Source of the DNA: a virus | Strand: one strand, 5' to 3' | IMG/VR virus record: IMGVR_UViG_3300000553_000116 | Location: 1-38,031 of that record | DNA: 38,031 bases | Shown: piece after piece, positions 9,132 through 21,635 of the stretch | How the letters are laid out: each line of letters opens with the position of its first letter | Position numbering within the stretch: the stretch's first letter is position 1 | Program-made: the position numbers and the translations under genes | The notes under the pieces: generated by a model | What the model was told of the DNA's origin: nothing | Databases searched by the model: none | What the model saw: only the letters and a program-made list of their open reading frames with translations

Positions 9132-9211
9132 TTTTTAAATATCCATAAAATTAAAACGATTGTGCCGTAGAAGTAGAGCATCCATTCGCCTAGCTGGTGG
9201 GGAATGTTCAT
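9128..9211 (-). CDS. 27-residue predicted single-span membrane peptide
   Basis: This very short gene begins MNIPHQLGEW and continues with a strongly hydrophobic aromatic stretch (MLYFYGTIVLILWIF, about residues 11-25) ending in two lysines. That is the pattern of a small single-pass membrane peptide with a positively charged inner end. Both junctions are exact ATGA overlaps, with the genes at 9208-9423 and 8850-9131, which supports it as a real gene. Small phage membrane peptides can be holin-like, superinfection-exclusion or inhibitor proteins. No specific assignment is possible. Confidence 0.6.
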   Translation of the reverse strand: MNIPHQLGEWMLYFYGTIVLILWIFKK

Positions 9212-9423
9212 TCCTTTACCCCATCAATCCACGCATCCAGTTTGGTGTGCATCCATGCGCGGCGATTCTCTGCCGTGGTGATGACCTTATCATCGACAAT
9301 TACTTTCTGCTTATTTGCCATCTCTGCCTCAAACTGCTCACCTTTCTCAAACGTGATTTTTTCAGGATGGCTGATCACGTCAACGACTACGCCATTTATG
9401 TTTATTGCGACTTCATGGTTCAT
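9208..9423 (-). CDS. Hypothetical protein (71 aa)
   Basis: The product opens MNHEVAININGVVVDVISHP, likely two beta strands, followed by a charged helical part (EKGEQFEAEMANKQKVIVDD) and an Arg/Trp/His-containing end. I recognise no family. It is joined by ATGA overlaps to the genes on both sides of the operon. Confidence 0.62.
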   Translation of the reverse strand: MNHEVAININGVVVDVISHPEKITFEKGEQFEAEMANKQKVIVDDKVITTAENRRAWMHTKLDAWIDGVKE

Positions 9424-9857
9424 GTGTTTAATTCCTTTAGTTTGGTTTGAATTTCTTTTGCATAAAAGTTAAATGGCTGGTCTTTGCAAAAGTTTGCGAT
9501 TTCATAAACTTCATCATCCGTCAGCCCGACCCACGTCTTGCGTGGTGGTGCGTTCAAATCTACACGCATACCAACCTGATTCAACGTCACCATGCCAGAC
9601 CCCTTGGGATATAACGTAAATGGGTCTATATTTGTATCTGCACCTGCGTCAGTTAATTTAGGCGCTTGCTCAGGTTGTGCGGCATCATGTATATGCCCAT
9701 ATTCGTACATTGGAGACAATTTCAAAGGCTTATCTTGCTCAGGCTCGGCTAACTCTGCTTCAAGGGCTGTGATGGCTCTTTGAATAGCAGTATCGTCACG
9801 AGAATCTTTCATTGGCTTTAAAGCATCCAACGCTTGCTGCATAATTGCACGGCTCAT
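9420..9857 (-). CDS. Hypothetical protein with conserved KTWVGLTDDEV tail
   Basis: This 145-residue protein has three parts. The N-terminal helix pair (MSRAIMQQALDALKP ... AIQRAITALEAELA) is of a kind common in small phage early proteins. A variable Pro/Asp-rich middle follows. The C-terminal segment (RKTWVGLTDDEVYEIANFC, about 105-123, then FYAKEIQTKLKELN) resembles a tail I recall on many otherwise unrelated proteobacterial phage proteins. This modular build suggests domain shuffling. Its start overlaps the EVTK-coding junction of the upstream gene (GAGGTGACGAAATGA). Its function is unknown. Confidence 0.68.
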   Translation of the reverse strand: MSRAIMQQALDALKPMKDSRDDTAIQRAITALEAELAEPEQDKPLKLSPMYEYGHIHDAAQPEQAPKLTDAGADTNIDPFTLYPKGSGMVTLNQVGMRVDLNAPPRKTWVGLTDDEVYEIANFCKDQPFNFYAKEIQTKLKELNT

Positions 9858-10324
9858 TTCGTCACCTCCATAGATTTACCAATCTCTGCCGCTGCTCTCA
9901 CGATTGCCCTGCGTGTTGCGGCGTAAGGATCATGTTTAACAAACGATTCGCTGTACTCAGGGAATCGAGAAACCTTTTCTTCCAACCAACTGCCGTCCGC
10001 AGTTTTTCTGAGTTTTGAAACGGCAGGAAGTTGGCAGCGTTCGTTAAAATAAACATACGGGCAAACATCAAGTTGCAACTTCACCGCCAGTCGCAGAGCA
10101 TCACCGTCATCAATGAGGGGGTTCCAACCAAGTTCTGCAACAGCGTCACGCAACGTTGGTTCGTTGGTTTTTTCGCCGCTGTACGCATCAAATGGAACCC
10201 AATCTCGACAACAGACGTGTTTATTGTCATGGGGGTCGGTCACATTTAAATAGCCGTGTTTGCTTTGCCAACAAGACCATCCCGCAGCTTTCGCCGCAAG
10301 TTCTAGCAGTTCACGGTCTGTCAT
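9854..10324 (-). CDS. Phage ABA-sandwich domain protein
   Basis: This 156-residue protein contains the signature LGWNPLIDDGDALRLAVKLQ (about residues 85-104), flanked by a WSCW...GYLNV N-terminal part and a C-terminal helix ending YAATRRAIVRAAAEIG. The pattern fits the phage ABA-sandwich/DUF2591-like group, small proteins of unknown activity common in phage accessory regions. It ends EVTK, which is encoded by the shared junction sequence that also supplies the next gene's ribosome binding site and start. Confidence 0.72.
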   Translation of the reverse strand: MTDRELLELAAKAAGWSCWQSKHGYLNVTDPHDNKHVCCRDWVPFDAYSGEKTNEPTLRDAVAELGWNPLIDDGDALRLAVKLQLDVCPYVYFNERCQLPAVSKLRKTADGSWLEEKVSRFPEYSESFVKHDPYAATRRAIVRAAAEIGKSMEVTK

Positions 10325-10482
10325 TTCGTCACCTCGTCTAAATGGTCAGTAATCAATTGCGCTTTCACGATTTCAAGCACACCCAACACAGTCGCTAAGT
10401 ACAGCGACTCATCGTATTGGTGTATCAGCGCAAGCATTTCATCTGTCAAACCTTGGGCTAACTTGCCTTGGTTAAGGTTCAT
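10321..10482 (-). CDS. Small hypothetical protein (53 aa)
   Basis: The ATG at 10482 is preceded by GAGGTGACGAA, and the TGA overlaps the start of the ABA-sandwich gene (ATGA). The product (MNLNQGKLAQGLTDEMLALI... then YLATVLGVLEIVKAQL) is helical and ends LDEVTK, the same ending as two other genes in this operon. The exact coupling at both ends supports it. Its function is unknown. Confidence 0.62.
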   Translation of the reverse strand: MNLNQGKLAQGLTDEMLALIHQYDESLYLATVLGVLEIVKAQLITDHLDEVTK

Positions 10483-10613
10483 TTCGTCACCTCGTCTAGT
10501 GCGTAGAGTGGTATGGTATATATACCCTCGCCATCGGTTTCGCTTGCTGAAATCACATCGCCGTACTCAGGCAACATCCACGCCACAGGCTGCAACGCTT
10601 TCAGTTCACGCGC
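10478..10613. repeat. Perfect 136-bp direct repeat, copy 1
   Basis: Every base matches 10995-11130. The repeat covers the 3' half of the 78-residue gene, its stop, and the first bases of the next start. Identity ends abruptly at the left end (GG|TTCATT) and at the right end (TTCACGCGC|AGCGG). Such sharp edges indicate a recent copying or gene-conversion event, not slow divergence. Confidence 0.95.
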
Positions 10614-10715
10614 AGCGGCGAGGGCTTTTTCTACAATGTGATACTGAAAGTTTGCTTTATTAGAATTGTCTGACGCAAACTCTAAAGCCGCGATAATTGT
10701 TTCAATCTTGTTCAT
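10479..10715 (-). CDS. Hypothetical protein (78 aa), paralogue of the gene at 10996-11262
   Basis: The product starts MNKIETIIAALEF and ends in a 48-residue segment (ALAAARELKALQPVAWMLPE ... YALDEVTK) identical in sequence to the end of the 88-residue protein at 10996-11262. The underlying DNA is a perfect 136-base repeat, while the N-terminal halves differ. Segments like LQPVAWM..EYGD occur in many small phage proteins of unknown role. It is coupled by ATGA to both neighbours. Confidence 0.68.
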   Translation of the reverse strand: MNKIETIIAALEFASDNSNKANFQYHIVEKALAAARELKALQPVAWMLPEYGDVISASETDGEGIYTIPLYALDEVTK

Positions 10716-10879
10716 GTGTTCTTCCCCATCAATCCTTTACCAAGGCGGTCTTTTTCCATTTCACGCCTGTCCTGTTTGATGCGCCGTTCGGTAGCCCAAT
10801 GTTCTTTCATTGTGATGCCACTGCGATACATTTCGCCATAACCATTCAAGTTGTTTTTACGTTCTTTACGTTCGTTCAT
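10712..10879 (-). CDS. Small basic/charged hypothetical protein (55 aa)
   Basis: The product begins MNERKERKNNLNGYGEMYRS and is very rich in Arg, Lys and Glu (ERRIKQDRREMEKDRLGKG), so probably a charged helix. TGAGGATGAGAA precedes the ATG and the TGA overlaps the next ATG (ATGA). It lies between the two halves of a duplicated gene block, so it may be a later insertion. The function is unknown; an RNA- or protein-binding role is only a guess. Confidence 0.62.
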   Translation of the reverse strand: MNERKERKNNLNGYGEMYRSGITMKEHWATERRIKQDRREMEKDRLGKGLMGKNT

Positions 10880-10888
10880 TTCTCATCC

Positions 10889-10999
10889 TCAAAAAAAATA
10901 ACTGACTTTGCGAAAAATAACTTTGCGTCTGTGCGATTTCATAAACACGCCAAGCTCAGTAAAAAACCAAAATTGTTTACGGTAGTGGCGCATTTTCAT
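10889..10999 (-). CDS. 36-residue basic aromatic protein, copy A
   Basis: The gene begins in the stop of the 88-residue gene (ATGA) and runs for 36 codons. The product (MKMRHYRKQFWFF..., then ELGVFMKSH, ending RKVSYFF) is strongly basic and aromatic. A second copy lies at 11272-11382. The two proteins differ at only three or four residues, while several differences in the DNA are silent (for example CGTAAACAATTT against CGTAAGCAGTTT). Silent change with conserved protein is good evidence that this tiny frame is translated and under selection. I recognise no family. Confidence 0.72.
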   Translation of the reverse strand: MKMRHYRKQFWFFTELGVFMKSHRRKVIFRKVSYFF

Positions 11000-11130
11000 T
11001 TCGTCACCTCGTCTAGTGCGTAGAGTGGTATGGTATATATACCCTCGCCATCGGTTTCGCTTGCTGAAATCACATCGCCGTACTCAGGCAACATCCACGC
11101 CACAGGCTGCAACGCTTTCAGTTCACGCGC
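10995..11130. repeat. Perfect 136-bp direct repeat, copy 2
   Basis: Identical to 10478-10613. It spans the 3' part and stop of the 88-residue gene and the start of the 36-residue gene A. The repeat contains the GAGGTGACGAAATGA junction, so homologous exchange between copies would leave both reading frames and coupling intact. Confidence 0.95.
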
Positions 11131-11262
11131 TGCTGCTAGGGCTTTAATTGATGCCTCTAATTCTTCTTCAAGATACACAGCGCCACCGTCTTGACGGTTG
11201 TACAACTTGCAAGCGTTGATTACTTTATCAAGCGCATCAATAATTAAATCAATCTTGTTCAT
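10996..11262 (-). CDS. Hypothetical protein (88 aa), paralogue of the gene at 10479-10715
   Basis: The product starts MNKIDLIIDALDKVINACK. Its N-terminal 40 residues differ from the 78-residue paralogue, and its last 48 residues are identical to it. AAGGGTGAAAA precedes the ATG. The upstream neighbour is the 36-residue gene copy B and the downstream one is copy A, so the gene is flanked by a duplicated pair. It may be a small regulator or inhibitor; no function is known. Confidence 0.68.
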   Translation of the reverse strand: MNKIDLIIDALDKVINACKLYNRQDGGAVYLEEELEASIKALAAARELKALQPVAWMLPEYGDVISASETDGEGIYTIPLYALDEVTK

Positions 11263-11271
11263 TTTTCACCC

Positions 11272-11382
11272 TTAAAAAAAATAACTGACTTTGCGAAATA
11301 TAACTTTGCGGTTGTGCGATTTCATAAACACGCCGAGTTCAGGAAAGTACCAAAACTGCTTACGGTAATGGCGCATTTTCAT
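11272..11382 (-). CDS. 36-residue basic aromatic protein, copy B
   Basis: A 36-codon frame starting in the stop of the upstream gene (ATGA) and ending TAA nine bases before the next ATG. The product (MKMRHYRKQFWYFPELG..., ending VIFRKVSYFF) is nearly identical to copy A at 10889-10999; the differences are F/Y, T/P and R/N exchanges. It is strongly basic with an aromatic core and no cysteine. Its function is unknown. Confidence 0.72.
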   Translation of the reverse strand: MKMRHYRKQFWYFPELGVFMKSHNRKVIFRKVSYFF

Positions 11383-11621
11383 TTCGTCATCTCTTCAATC
11401 GCATCCATCATTTCATTGCTGATGCCGCACATCCAACCTGTGTCTGACGGGTGAAAGCGCAGGATGTAATTGTCGCCAATCAAGACTTCTCTAAACGCTT
11501 TCAACTCACGCAAATAGTCTTGGCGCACTAACTCGGCAAAGCGTTCAAGTTCTGTATCCTCCCAAATTAAATTTGGGCTTGGCTTGGCTTGTTGTACCAA
11601 TTCTTTTATTCGTTCGTTCAT
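11379..11621 (-). CDS. Hypothetical protein (80 aa)
   Basis: Begins MNERIKELVQQAK and continues with a helical part (ELERFAELVRQDYLRELKAF) typical of small phage early proteins, ending MMDAIEEMTK. The MNE(R/Q)xKEL start is shared with the next gene upstream (11618-11830). Both ends are ATGA junctions. Its function is unknown. Confidence 0.68.
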   Translation of the reverse strand: MNERIKELVQQAKPSPNLIWEDTELERFAELVRQDYLRELKAFREVLIGDNYILRFHPSDTGWMCGISNEMMDAIEEMTK

Positions 11622-11830
11622 ACCTCACCCCTCAATGATTTAGCAATCTGCATACACAGGTCAATGTGTTCAGCATAGTCATCGCTTAAAAATACTCTCA
11701 ACAATTTGCCCTCTTTGTCTTTGAGCATCCCGATTGCAATACAGATGGCTTCAGCCCAAGATGTTGTAGTGTTTTCTGCCATGAGGTGCTTGATACCGCT
11801 TTCAGCCAACTCTTTTAATTGTTCGTTCAT
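11618..11830 (-). CDS. Hypothetical protein (70 aa)
   Basis: Begins MNEQLKELAESGIKHLMAEN, probably helical throughout, with a single cysteine near the middle and one near the end. The N-terminus resembles that of the 80-residue neighbour, so they may share an origin. The start overlaps the upstream stop by ATGA and is preceded by GGGGGTGAGAA. Its function is unknown. Confidence 0.66.
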   Translation of the reverse strand: MNEQLKELAESGIKHLMAENTTTSWAEAICIAIGMLKDKEGKLLRVFLSDDYAEHIDLCMQIAKSLRGEV

Positions 11831-12039
11831 TTCTCACCCCCAAGTTTTTTGTTTAGCACCGCCCATTGCTCTTGATTGATTGACCACCAAGGCATACGAC
11901 CGCCTTCTTTGAAGGCTGCATCCCAAATACGTTTGGCATCTTTCTTGCGAACATCATCACGCAACTTAATAAACCACGGCAGCTCATCATCTTCAATTTT
12001 CCACCACGCCTCAAAAGCATCGTCACGTTCTTTGCTCAT
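11827..12039 (-). CDS. Hypothetical protein (70 aa) with FEAWW motif
   Basis: The product opens MSKERDDAFEAWWKIEDDEL, and a later KKDAKRIWDAAFKEGGRMPWW completes a pattern (F-x-x-W-W ... A-x-x-I-W-x-A-A-F) seen in many small phage proteins of unknown role. It is Trp-rich for its size (six). ATGA junctions lie at both ends. Confidence 0.68.
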   Translation of the reverse strand: MSKERDDAFEAWWKIEDDELPWFIKLRDDVRKKDAKRIWDAAFKEGGRMPWWSINQEQWAVLNKKLGGEK

Positions 12040-12284
12040 TTAGCACCCCTCAAAATTTCAATCGCAGCTTTAACATCTAACTCGGTACCGGACTGCAACG
12101 CGGCCAGAGCAGCACGACCGCGTGAGCGCATGCGCACGATGTCAGCGGCGTAGTCGTGGATGTTCTCATGCAGCACCTTGATTGACTTCTCTTGATCGCG
12201 AATCAGCGCGGCGGCCTCAGCCTGCTCTTGATGGGTCATGAAGAACCCGTGGTCCAAGTTTCTCAGTATTTTTTCAGGTGTCAT
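12036..12284 (-). CDS. Hypothetical coiled-coil-like protein (82 aa)
   Basis: Begins MTPEKILRNLDHGFFMTHQE and continues as a long Ala/Glu/Ile helix (about 20-75). No motif or membrane segment is seen. It is coupled by ATGA to the genes on both sides. Its function is unknown. Confidence 0.64.
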   Translation of the reverse strand: MTPEKILRNLDHGFFMTHQEQAEAAALIRDQEKSIKVLHENIHDYAADIVRMRSRGRAALAALQSGTELDVKAAIEILRGAK

Positions 12285-15040: not shown

Positions 15041-15604
15041 TTACCAGTCCTCGCCTGACGCCTCGTAGGCGCCCAGCTCGTTGACTGCGTCGGTCATGGC
15101 CTTGGCTGCGCCACCGAACGGTGTGCCGTCGCCGACCTTCTGCACGACGTTGAGCTCTAAGGTCACGCCACCCTTCTGTGAGGTGCCGTAGGCCTTGGCG
15201 TTCAAGCTGGCGCGCACGTAGCAGCCACCGTAGACCTCGAGCTCGTCGAGAATCTCGGCGCTCTGCGCGTCCACAATGCGTGGGCGCTGCTTGTTGCTCG
15301 CCTTGATCACCCAGTTGCCATTGGCCGCGGGATCGTCGACCTCGTCGCCGTCTGTGATGCCCCAGCGCTCAAAGTTCGTGGGCACCTTGGTTGGGTAGAG
15401 CTCCTTGATCGCGGCGTCCTGAGCGGCGCGCAGGTCGTCGATGAACTTCTTCTCGGACTTAGGCACGAGCAGGCTGATCGAGTACTTCGGGTCGCCCTCG
15501 CCTTGGAAGGCGGTCGGTTTGAAAATGTGCGGGTAGGATGCACGGGCTTTGGGTGAGTTAACTCGTGAAGAGCGTGTGACTTGGATTTTAGCGGCGGTTG
15601 CCAT
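15041..15604 (-). CDS. DUF2815 family ssDNA-binding protein (Enc34 type)
   Basis: The 187-residue product fits DUF2815: a conserved N-terminal part (PKARASYPHIFKPTAFQGEG, then PKYSISLLVPKSEKKFIDDL, about 18-58), a central W-x-I-T-D-G-D-E region near 81-88, a beta-rich C-terminal half (GGCYVRASLNAKAYGTSQKG) and an acidic end with a terminal aromatic residue (GEDW). Family members are OB-fold proteins that coat single-stranded DNA. The acidic tail is the usual partner-docking element of ssDNA-binding proteins. AAAGGTATTGAT precedes the ATG. It lies in one operon with the DUF2800 nuclease and, beyond the structured interval, the polymerase. Confidence 0.9.
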   Translation of the reverse strand: MATAAKIQVTRSSRVNSPKARASYPHIFKPTAFQGEGDPKYSISLLVPKSEKKFIDDLRAAQDAAIKELYPTKVPTNFERWGITDGDEVDDPAANGNWVIKASNKQRPRIVDAQSAEILDELEVYGGCYVRASLNAKAYGTSQKGGVTLELNVVQKVGDGTPFGGAAKAMTDAVNELGAYEASGEDW

Positions 15605-15625: not shown

Positions 15626-16723
15626 TTAAGAACGCAGCAGCTCGGCGAGCGCTGCATCGTGTGTGCTGAGTTCCGATCGTTTGTCTTCGATCGTTGTCAG
15701 CGTGGGTTTACCGGGCGGCTTGGTGATCAGGTCATCAAGCAGTACGGTAAATTTCTTCTTGCCAAGGAGGGTCTCGATGGCGCCTATTCCTAACAGCTTT
15801 GTAGCATAAATCTGTGCGGGCTTGAAGTCGTTGCTCAGCAGCCTGTCTGCAACCTTTGCATCGTCTGCCCAACTGCGCACGCTGCGGCCTTCAACTAACT
15901 TCAAGCCCGGTAGCTTCACGCCCGTCTCGGCACGCTTGAGCGCTTGATCTTGCAGGTCGTTTGCCCACGCGACGATGCCAGCGAGCTTGGGGTAGATGGC
16001 GGCAAGCTCTGCGTCGCCCATCAGGTCGCCCTTAGGTTGCTCGGCCACCGTTGCGATCATCATGTCAGCGCGTGCTCGGCACGAGTGGCGTGCCTTGCAG
16101 AACCGGCAGTGGTCGCCCGCGACTGGCTCGCCCTCGCCCTTGAACGCGATCGCGGCCACGGGCATAATACTCCTGCCCCATGCAAGCAAGTCGTCAATGC
16201 CAATAGTCCACGAGCTGATGTTGTTGATGCGTGGCTGCACGATGTGGAGCACGATGTCGCTAAACGTACCATAGAACAAGTCGTACTCGTTAATCGCACC
16301 CAAGCCGTAGAGCATGGCCTGCGAGTTGTTCTCGACGTCCACGGCCACACCCTTGCCGTGCTTGTAGTCAATCACGTGCAGCGTGCGATCGTCGATCAGC
16401 ACGCAGTCGCTGGTACCAAAGCCCTCTGGCACCCACGGGCTAACATCAAGCTTGACCTCGACCAGCATGTGCTCGTGCTTGATCGTGCGCACGTAGTCCA
16501 AGTAGACCTGCACCGCGTCGCGCATCTCTTGGCTGTAGTCGCCCGACATGTCATTGGCGTCCTTGCCCGTCACCAGCGCGCGTTCACCGAGCTCGTGAGC
16601 GAGGCGACCCTCGGCAGCATACGGGCTCTGCTCGTCTGGGAAGTGCGACTCGAGCCGCACGCTCGGTGTGCAGTTCAGCCACTGGTGGCTTTTTGAGCAC
16701 CCTAGGTAGGCGTGCTCACTCAT
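15626..16723 (-). CDS. DUF2800 family RecB/Cas4-like nuclease
   Basis: The 365-residue product has the family start (YLGCSKSHQWLNCTPSVRLE), the helix AAEGRLAHELGERAL with H43, the PD-(D/E)xK core (GTSDCVLIDD with D106, then HVIDYKHGKG with D119 and K121), and a cysteine set GDHCRFCKARHSCRARAD (C206, C209, C215). With an N-terminal cysteine (C9 or C18), these could hold an iron-sulfur cluster, as in Cas4 and AddB. It probably processes DNA ends during phage replication or recombination with the neighbouring ssDNA-binding protein. It overlaps the upstream gene by 8 bases. Confidence 0.88.
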   Translation of the reverse strand: MSEHAYLGCSKSHQWLNCTPSVRLESHFPDEQSPYAAEGRLAHELGERALVTGKDANDMSGDYSQEMRDAVQVYLDYVRTIKHEHMLVEVKLDVSPWVPEGFGTSDCVLIDDRTLHVIDYKHGKGVAVDVENNSQAMLYGLGAINEYDLFYGTFSDIVLHIVQPRINNISSWTIGIDDLLAWGRSIMPVAAIAFKGEGEPVAGDHCRFCKARHSCRARADMMIATVAEQPKGDLMGDAELAAIYPKLAGIVAWANDLQDQALKRAETGVKLPGLKLVEGRSVRSWADDAKVADRLLSNDFKPAQIYATKLLGIGAIETLLGKKKFTVLLDDLITKPPGKPTLTTIEDKRSELSTHDAALAELLRS

Positions 16724-20088: not shown

Positions 20089-20482
20089 GGAAAAAGACGT
20101 TGAAAGGCGGTTAGTGGGGGGTATAAAGCGGCTCGGCGGGCAGGCGGTTAAGTTCGTCAGCCCGGCCTCGGCGGGGTGGCCTGACCGCTTAATTTTGTTA
20201 CCCGATGGCAAGGTCATGTTCATCGAGTTGAAGACGAGCACAGGAAAACTTAGCGAGTTGCAGAAGTACCGTCTGAAGGTTTTGGGTGACTTGGGGTTTG
20301 ATGCCCGGGTTCTGTACGGACACGATGAGGTTAAAGGATTCTTAGATGAAATTGCACGACTACCAGTTGAGGATGGCCGAGCACATGGTCGAGCACCGCG
20401 GGGCGATGTGCTGGTCGGAGGTGGGCTTGGGGAAGACCGCAGCGACCCTGCAGGCGCTTCGGATGATGAAGGCAAGGGGTGA
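20078..20482 (+). CDS. VRR-NUC domain nuclease
   Basis: In this 134-residue protein the VRR-NUC core is clear: EKDVERRLVGGIKRLGG, then SPASAGWPDRLIL (D36), then KVMFIELKTSTGKLSELQKY (E50, K52) and a closing FDARVLYG. These are the PD-(D/E)xK catalytic residues. Phage members act as structure-specific or Holliday-junction nucleases. The family core ends near residue 90. The remaining 45 residues (Gly/Asp/Arg-rich) are read in another frame over the first 137 bases of the helicase gene. An ATG at 20087 is an alternative start. The gene begins within the last GGTGACAT repeat. Confidence 0.85.
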   Translation: MGDMEKDVERRLVGGIKRLGGQAVKFVSPASAGWPDRLILLPDGKVMFIELKTSTGKLSELQKYRLKVLGDLGFDARVLYGHDEVKGFLDEIARLPVEDGRAHGRAPRGDVLVGGGLGEDRSDPAGASDDEGKG

Positions 20483-21635
20483 GCCTATCCAAGTGCTGAT
20501 CGTGGCGCCTAAGCGCGTTTCTGAGCACGTTTGGGAGGCTGAGCGCGACCTGTGGGCACCCAAGATGCCGATGCTGGTGATCAAGGGCAACCAAGCGCAG
20601 CGACGTAAGGCGCTCAGGACACCGTGCGCGGTCAAGGTGATTGGGCGCGATAACGTGAAGTGGCTGGTGGACGAGCTCAGGGACCGCTGGCCGTTCAACG
20701 TGCTGGTGGTCGACGAGAGTCAGGGGTTCAAGAGCCCGTCTACGGCGCGATTTAAGGCGCTTAGGCGCGTTAAATTCGATCGGGTGATACTCCTGAGTGC
20801 CACACCGGCCTCAGAGGGCTTGCTGGGGCTCTGGAGCCAGTGCTATCTGGCCGATCAGGGCGCGAGGCTGGGCAAGACCTACACCGGGTACACCAACGCG
20901 TTCTTTGTGGGCGACTACATGGGCTGGAACCTGACACCGCGACCCAACGCCGAGAAGGAGATCCACGCGAGGGTCAAGGACATCACGGTGGCCATGCGGG
21001 CTGAGGATTACCTCGACCTGCCCGAGCGCATCAACAGCAACACGGTGGTCGAGATGCTGCCCGGCGAGTTCAAGGTGTACGAGCAGCTCAGGCGCGACGC
21101 GCTCTTGCCGATTGCAAACGGTGAGCCGATCACGGCAGCTAATGCCGCGGTGCTCTGGGGCAAGCTGCACCAGCTCTCGGGCGGGGCGATCTACGACGAG
21201 GATAAGGTGGTGCACGTATTTTCCAACGCGAAGCTTGCCGGCCTGCAGGACGTGATCACGGCAGCGAACGGCAACCCGGTGCTGGTGTTCTACGGCTACC
21301 GCCACGAGATCGAGCGCATACAGGCCGCCACGGGCGCCGAGCTGCTGGACGTTGATAGGTGGAACGCCGGCCAGCAAAAGGTCGCCTTGGCGCACCCTGA
21401 CTCGTGCGGGGCGGGGCTGAACCTGCAGCATGGGGGAAGCATCGCGGTGTGGTTCACACTGCCGGCAAGCCTTGGCCAGTACATTCAGGCCTGCGGGCGG
21501 TTGCACCGGCAGGGGCAGAAGCGGCCGGTTTTTATTCACCACCTCATCGTGGCCGGTACGAGTGACGAGGTGGTGTTGGCGCGGCTGGGGGAGAAGAACA
21601 CAACTCAGGTCGAGTTGCTGCGCGCGATGATATAG
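20346..21635 (+). CDS. SNF2-type superfamily 2 helicase
   Basis: In this 429-residue protein the motifs run in order: motif I CWSEVGLGKTAATLQAL (Walker A, residues 25-31), motif Ia LIVAPKRV, motif II VVDESQGFK (DESQ, 123-126), motif III LLSATPASEG (151-154), motif V-like CGAGLNLQHGG, and motif VI QACGRLHRQGQ (381-391). Members use ATP to move along DNA and remodel forks or protein-DNA complexes. It is the last gene of the plus-strand replication block and ends before a bidirectional terminator. Its first 137 bases are shared with the end of the VRR-NUC gene in another frame. Confidence 0.92.
   Translation: MKLHDYQLRMAEHMVEHRGAMCWSEVGLGKTAATLQALRMMKARGEPIQVLIVAPKRVSEHVWEAERDLWAPKMPMLVIKGNQAQRRKALRTPCAVKVIGRDNVKWLVDELRDRWPFNVLVVDESQGFKSPSTARFKALRRVKFDRVILLSATPASEGLLGLWSQCYLADQGARLGKTYTGYTNAFFVGDYMGWNLTPRPNAEKEIHARVKDITVAMRAEDYLDLPERINSNTVVEMLPGEFKVYEQLRRDALLPIANGEPITAANAAVLWGKLHQLSGGAIYDEDKVVHVFSNAKLAGLQDVITAANGNPVLVFYGYRHEIERIQAATGAELLDVDRWNAGQQKVALAHPDSCGAGLNLQHGGSIAVWFTLPASLGQYIQACGRLHRQGQKRPVFIHHLIVAGTSDEVVLARLGEKNTTQVELLRAMI

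Follow-up and report, generated by a model that had tools for sequence, protein, structure and literature searches.

A repeated stop-start junction between small phage genes as a possible adaptor for single-gene exchange

A junction repeated between small overlapping genes

The window analyzed here, 38,031 nucleotides (nt) of viral DNA (IMG/VR record IMGVR_UViG_3300000553_000116, positions 1 to 38,031), carries a short sequence that recurs within 1.5 kb at the boundaries between small genes; this gene junction is the subject of the present work. All copies, and all the genes and blocks described with them, lie on the minus strand. The sequence GAGGTGACGAAATGA occurs in four exact copies (at 9854, 10321, 10479, and 10996) and in one copy with a single mismatch, GAGATGACGAAATGA, at 11379. 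Dinucleotide shuffles searched with up to three mismatches gave a mean of 0.79 matches and a maximum of 3; five matches were never reached.

The copy at 9854-9868, an exact GAGGTGACGAAATGA, encodes the end (SMEVTK) of a 156-aa gene (9854-10324; PHROG 5086, function unknown) together with the ribosome-binding site (RBS) and start of a 145-aa gene (9420-9857) that itself ends in KLKELNT. Three further copies have 20 nt in common, TAGACGAGGTGACGAAATGA. At 10321-10340 this sequence ends a 53-aa gene (10321-10482) as HLDEVTK and starts the 156-aa gene; at 10479-10498 it ends a 78-aa gene (10479-10715) as ALDEVTK and starts the 53-aa gene; and at 10996-11015 it ends an 88-aa gene (10996-11262), again as ALDEVTK, and starts copy b of a 36-aa gene. 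The mismatched copy (11379-11393) lies at the end (EEMTK) of an 80-aa gene (11379-11621) and the start of copy a of the 36-aa gene. At all five copies the reading frames form an ATGA overlap, in which TGA stops the upstream gene and ATG starts the next, leaving no intergenic space, and a Shine-Dalgarno sequence (SD) stands properly spaced before the 4-nt overlap. GAGGTGA can base-pair with the 3' end of bacterial 16S RNA, so that one piece of DNA is C terminus, RBS, and start together. A preliminary description of the window had claimed this triple role, along with five junctions and EVTK-like upstream ends, and each of these claims is borne out: the reading frames and GAGGTGA agree with the first, the four exact copies and one near-exact copy with the second, and the products, which end in EVTK four times and in EMTK once, with the third.

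Its statement that the joined genes are otherwise unrelated holds in part. The genes upstream of junctions 10479 and 10996 are alike over their last 151 nt (10478-10628 and 10995-11145, family D1; 98% identity), and the genes downstream of junctions 10996 and 11379 are 36-aa paralogues within a repeated 140-nt block (10874-11013 with copy b and 11257-11396 with copy a, family D2; 89% identity), so that among the five junctions both upstream ends and downstream genes come in four kinds rather than five. The D1 homology ends at the junction and the D2 homology at the junction's far edge; the two thus terminate on opposite sides of it, each within a few bases, and their identities differ, which is unlike one tandem duplication and as expected from exchange at the junction. 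A simple tandem duplication in the window was rejected on these grounds.

The 15-mer GAGGTGACGAAATGA was also rejected as specific by itself: at least 118 IMG/VR stretches contain it, the majority without relation to the window, and it mostly sits at SD-driven boundaries. In unselected IMG/VR contigs it lies at gene boundaries in 86 of 115 instances, among the matches listed. The 20-mer TAGACGAGGTGACGAAATGA was found in 23 IMG/VR stretches, and 18 of its 19 distinct instances lie at a gene boundary with both frames open. The GAGGTGA...ATGA portion of the junction is predictable from an SD plus ATGA coupling, but the CGAA spacer and the bases further upstream are not. CGAA is the spacer at 8 of 20 retrieval-unbiased GAGGTGA-N4-ATGA boundaries (the window's own copies counted among them), and any other spacer is found at 2 or fewer.

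Gene order at the junction in related phages

Relatives were IMG/VR contigs retrieved by protein similarity and by the 20-mer; they are metagenomic and some are short, and a difference in gene content between them may be either a gain or a loss. The phages are presumably freshwater phages, a label that we take from the source of one record (Manatee Spring), one metagenome-assembled genome (MAG), and general knowledge of such collections. Contig L028, 99.6% identical to the window over 10.6 kb, has an identical gene order. In four others (L125, L133, L128, and L045) exactly the 53-aa gene is absent, and a PLYALDEVTK-type tail leads straight into the 156-aa gene. The 53-aa gene of the window is a single-gene cassette, bounded by the 20-nt junction on both its left edge (10479-10498) and its right edge (10321-10340), and the empty site of the relatives keeps one copy; an alignment of its presence and absence in six contigs places the insertion/deletion edges inside the junction. 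The 53-aa gene is present in L022, where the downstream junction is the same and a different gene stands behind it. Contig L303, retrieved by protein and not by motif, has another gene upstream of its 53-aa gene, and the two are joined by the same 15-nt core. Behind that 53-aa gene, which ends in CATTTAAACGAGGTGA, comes a member of the PVAW family described below, and the switch falls directly past the SD.

Across non-redundant contigs, the junction tails PLYALDEVTK, AKAEVTK, SMEVTK, and HLDEVTK are joined to at least 10 kinds of downstream start. The tail residues vary in relatives (EDTK, EATK, EITK, EVKK, and EVLK), while ATGA is kept and GAGG usually kept. The reading frame is retained at all 19 instances of the 20-mer. 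Relatives of the 53-aa protein (L305-L336) usually have acidic tails (EEDDD and similar) and varied RBS sequences in front; the LDEVTK end is seen only in the window, the near-identical L028, and L022.

A second junction type, the 21-mer CTNAARGAGAARAACACATGA encoding KEKNT, was found in at least 120 IMG/VR stretches, in up to three copies per contig, with a very wide range of genes behind it and the frame retained in 133 of 136 instances. In the form ..AIEAKLKEKNT followed by an RBS and ATGA (L180-L299), it precedes many different genes, its upstream protein often has WVGLTDEE, and it is commoner still than the EVTK junction. After the retrieving instances were dropped, twelve different 12-mers recurred at three or more boundaries at which the genes are pairwise unrelated on both sides, against a mean of 0.6 and a maximum of 4 under a position-specific null. 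The recurrent ends (KEKNT, KERNT, KEKNA, KDKNT, KENT, ARGQA, ARGEK, ARGNT, and GESK) form, with EVTK, a small repertoire; as about a dozen other tails behave likewise, the junction is no peculiarity of this site. Another recurrent junction, of KELNT type, lies in the window at the end of the 145-aa gene (9420-9443, ending in AAACTAAAGGAATTAAACACATGA and encoding KLKELNT); the same 20 nt recur in L133 and L300, where the genes upstream are unrelated. Outside the SD, synonymous positions hardly vary: the Thr codon of EVTK is ACG in 9 of 10 cases (background, 0.19) and the Gln codon of RGQA is CAA in 18 of 18 (background, 0.64), and Ser is AGC in 11 of 13 and Asn AAC in 27 of 31 and in 12 of 12 (backgrounds, 0.19 to 0.64). 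Such fixation favors shared DNA over peptide selection or convergent peptides.

The junction as a possible gene-to-gene connector

We consider it probable that the junction is a compact connector between genes, an adaptor whose identity from site to site lets whole genes be exchanged, inserted, or removed. The adaptor comprises the codons that close the upstream gene (EVTK), an almost perfect SD (GAGGTGA), and the ATGA overlap, and the downstream gene would be translated by coupling to any upstream neighbor. With an identical adaptor at several sites, in this and other freshwater phages, crossing over or single-strand annealing within the adaptor or a longer shared tail could exchange, insert, or remove whole genes and leave frame, stop, and RBS intact; because the adaptor unites frame, stop, RBS, and start, exchange within it would yield a working coupled pair. 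We infer homologous recombination as the mechanism from sequence comparison, with the adaptor as the homology. It may proceed through the phage's own proteins, namely, a candidate recombinase resembling the gp2.5 single-stranded DNA-binding and annealing protein (15041-15604, minus strand; phrog_112, E=4e-48) and an exonuclease that is its candidate partner (15626-16723, minus strand; phrog_69, E=3e-119). More tentatively, and on balance doubtfully, a few standard gene-end adaptors (of the EVTK, KEKNT, KERNT, ARGQA, ARGEK, and GESK types) might be interchangeable connectors with which phage annealing recombination assembles single accessory genes into coupled operons across unrelated freshwater phages.

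To count how often exchange uses a shared junction, open reading frame pairs were called mechanically from an ATGA overlap and an SD-like sequence, and the counts cover that type of boundary. At the protein level adjacency was low at every boundary (0.06 at "other" boundaries) and this junction was not separated from the rest, so DNA-level comparison was used instead. Among 60-nt DNA blocks, in non-independent pairs, adjacency was kept in 4 of 25 at this junction and 6 of 44 at the KEKNT junction, in 92 of 231 at boundaries with rare cores, in 26 of 40 at other recurrent cores, and in 204 of 218 inside genes; as judged from these blocks, breakpoints are gene boundaries in general. We also assembled 55 exchange families, in which downstream genes alike at the DNA level follow upstream genes unrelated to one another; pairs biased by retrieval through the motif were excluded, and a junction was taken as retained when at least 9 of the 11 nt of the RBS and spacer matched. 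The RBS core is retained in 12 of the 55, compared with 1.4 expected. By this measure shared junctions are strongly overrepresented, yet they account for a minority of exchanges, about one fifth.

Several observations weigh against the adaptor interpretation. The other 43 families (about 78%) switch at the start codon with no shared junction, so swapping can do without a fixed one. Adjacency is higher at the other recurrent cores, so recurrence alone is no predictor of shuffling; the adjacency pairs, as stated, are not independent; and exchange is also seen at intragenic blocks. The minimal pairing segment is 23 to 27 bp for Redβ and 31 to 34 bp for RecA (PMC3945230), and the uninterrupted shared run at the best-documented event, 20 nt, falls below the Redβ minimum. 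ALDEVTK tails share a stretch of up to 35 nt with imperfect similarity; annealing aided by longer imperfect similarity would thus be likelier than strict RecA-type exchange. The preliminary description had proposed that a fixed junction enables recombinational swaps. The exact changes of gene order and the excess of retained cores agree with that proposal; the 43 families without the junction do not, and the homologous recombination that it names as mechanism is putative. It had suggested searching relatives for order changes exactly at the motif, and such changes were found, in the 53-aa gene and in the many genes behind the same tail; neither a fixed gene order nor absence of the motif from relatives, its two grounds for abandoning the idea, was encountered.

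Among other explanations, the one that we take most seriously, while thinking it rather unlikely, is illegitimate recombination anywhere in the DNA, with selection retaining products that have a working RBS, so that the tail is kept without serving as homology. The 43 families that switch at the start codon are what it predicts, and these operons have many ATGA overlaps with strong SDs, but it fails to predict 20-nt copies at both ends of the 53-aa gene together with a one-copy empty site, synonymous bases fixed outside the SD, or the recurrence of 12-mers where the genes on each side are unrelated. Random joining with RBS selection explains most other boundaries, and perhaps some of the present ones. 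It is a good deal less probable that the motif is merely the best SD combined with the most frequent overlap, its copies in the window having multiplied through local gene duplication. GAGGTGA does match the anti-SD, duplicates account for two of the upstream ends and two of the downstream genes, and the 15-mer lies mostly at gene boundaries; against this, the copies at 9854 and 10321 lie outside the duplications, an SD needs neither the CGAA spacer nor the upstream TAGAC, D1 and D2 differ in identity and end on opposite junction sides, and the tail and gene combinations recur in other phages. The presence/absence alignment of the 53-aa gene alone disfavors it.

The shared tail could instead function as a peptide, namely, a C-terminal tag or binding end acquired by different proteins, with the RBS role secondary. 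The near-constant frame at both the 20-mer and the KEKNT 21-mer speaks for such a peptide, but is equally expected under selection for coupling, and we regard the idea as very improbable given that synonymous positions are fixed and that residues vary in relatives where ATGA, and usually GAGG, is constant. Least credible of all, to the point of being negligible, is a dedicated mobile element or site-specific recombinase that moves genes at the junction: the edges are indeed junction exact, but domain searches recognized no recombinase or transposase among the small genes, and about a dozen unrelated junction sequences behave in the same way.

Relation to known systems and neighboring genes

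The boundary sequences of lambdoid phages that Clark and co-workers described in 2001 are said to lie at a few module edges per genome. Such sequences are short, conserved at the edges of modules, and proposed as sites of homologous recombination (Clark et al. 2001, on phage HK620, summarized in PMC3029335); the short-homology idea goes back to Susskind and Botstein (1978). The present junction resembles them in being a short piece conserved at gene boundaries across related phages and in being kept while the flanking genes differ between phages; it is unlike them in occurring up to five times per genome, in separating single genes, and in being C terminus, RBS, and start. The window encodes a DNA polymerase (phrog_1252), the gp2.5-like protein, a primase/helicase, and a terminase, and its DNA is distantly similar to that of Bordetella phage BPP-1; the phage is not lambdoid, which puts the junction outside the lambdoid boundary-sequence set. 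Short conserved boundary sequences as points of exchange are already established for lambdoid phages (PMC3029335); the preliminary description knew of no named element of such a kind, but the idea has already been named. What is new here is that the piece is repeated within a single genome, separates single genes, has a triple role, and belongs to a countable set in environmental phages.

Another close likeness is found in mycobacteriophage Island3, in which a single gene, gene 68, is gained or lost beside a repeat encoding a C-terminal end common to two adjacent genes; the repeat spans 18 residues, about 50 bp, and insertion was attributed to recombination within it (Pope et al. 2011, PMC3029335). 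Here, similarly, two copies of LDEVTK with RBS and ATGA flank the 53-aa gene, and an empty site has one. Island3 is one isolated case with a longer repeat and, in the part of that account available, with no mention of a role as RBS or start, whereas the present phages offer many cases, a family of adaptors, and pieces of 15 to 35 nt.

The mobile regulatory cassettes of T4-type phages, associated with the work of Arbiol and co-workers in 2010, reportedly consist of a promoter and an early stem-loop, are repeated between genes, and are thought to aid shuffling. Those cassettes are intergenic, and the junctions here are coding overlaps with no intergenic space. ATGA overlaps are coupled by termination-reinitiation (PMC6728339); our junctions have the same overlap and the same expected coupling, and their identical spacer and upstream bases in unrelated genes are unexplained by coupling alone. 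Phage recombinases perform relaxed homologous recombination and are plausible machinery here, although the assays used longer, diverged homology and the Gp2.5 class is named as not assayed for it (De Paepe et al. 2014, PMC3945230).

These comparisons bear on an old question about the origin of phage mosaicism: short conserved junctions on the one hand, random joining followed by selection on the other. Boundary sequences could not be found at most mosaic boundaries (Pope et al. 2011, PMC3029335). In the present phage group such pieces can be found, counted, and compared with boundaries that lack them, a natural data set in which the piece is kept by about one fifth of the upstream-exchange families, roughly eight times as many as expected.

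The junctions lie in a hypervariable block of small genes (about 9200-12050 of the window) between flanks that are 81 to 89% identical in relatives (compared with L125 and L136). Within it, the PVAW small-protein family is an in-frame mosaic, seen in the 88-aa gene (copy a, PVAW..PLYALDEVTK), the 78-aa gene (copy b), and the 80-aa gene of the window and in L133, L045, and L303. Its blocks, an N-terminal MNKIDLIIDAL or MNERIKEL, a middle LRELKAL-PVAW, and a PLYALDEVTK tail, occur in varied combinations with joins at LRELKAL; in L133 and L303 the N-terminal half of the 80-aa protein is fused to the PVAW family tail. The 36-aa protein (MKMRHYRKQFW..), present twice in the window (10889-10999 and 11272-11382), also occurs in L365 (2502-2612; MW202520.1), a complete circular phage from Manatee Spring deposited as Myoviridae sp. 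In that phage the spacer is shorter by one base, so the gene upstream of the 36-aa gene reads on through the junction.

Searched for domains, the small proteins yielded only matches that were weak or of unknown function, and a search of INPHARED with the 88-aa protein gave no match; with the 156-aa protein, INPHARED yielded remote relatives only, in Pseudomonas, Acidovorax, and Aeromonas phages. A scan of genome contigs matched one beta-proteobacterial MAG contig, which suggests a beta-proteobacterial host. Elsewhere in the window, a 429-aa helicase-like protein (20346-21635) matches only the middle (695-1135 of 1881) of the phrog_62 helicase family and is possibly a split-off piece.

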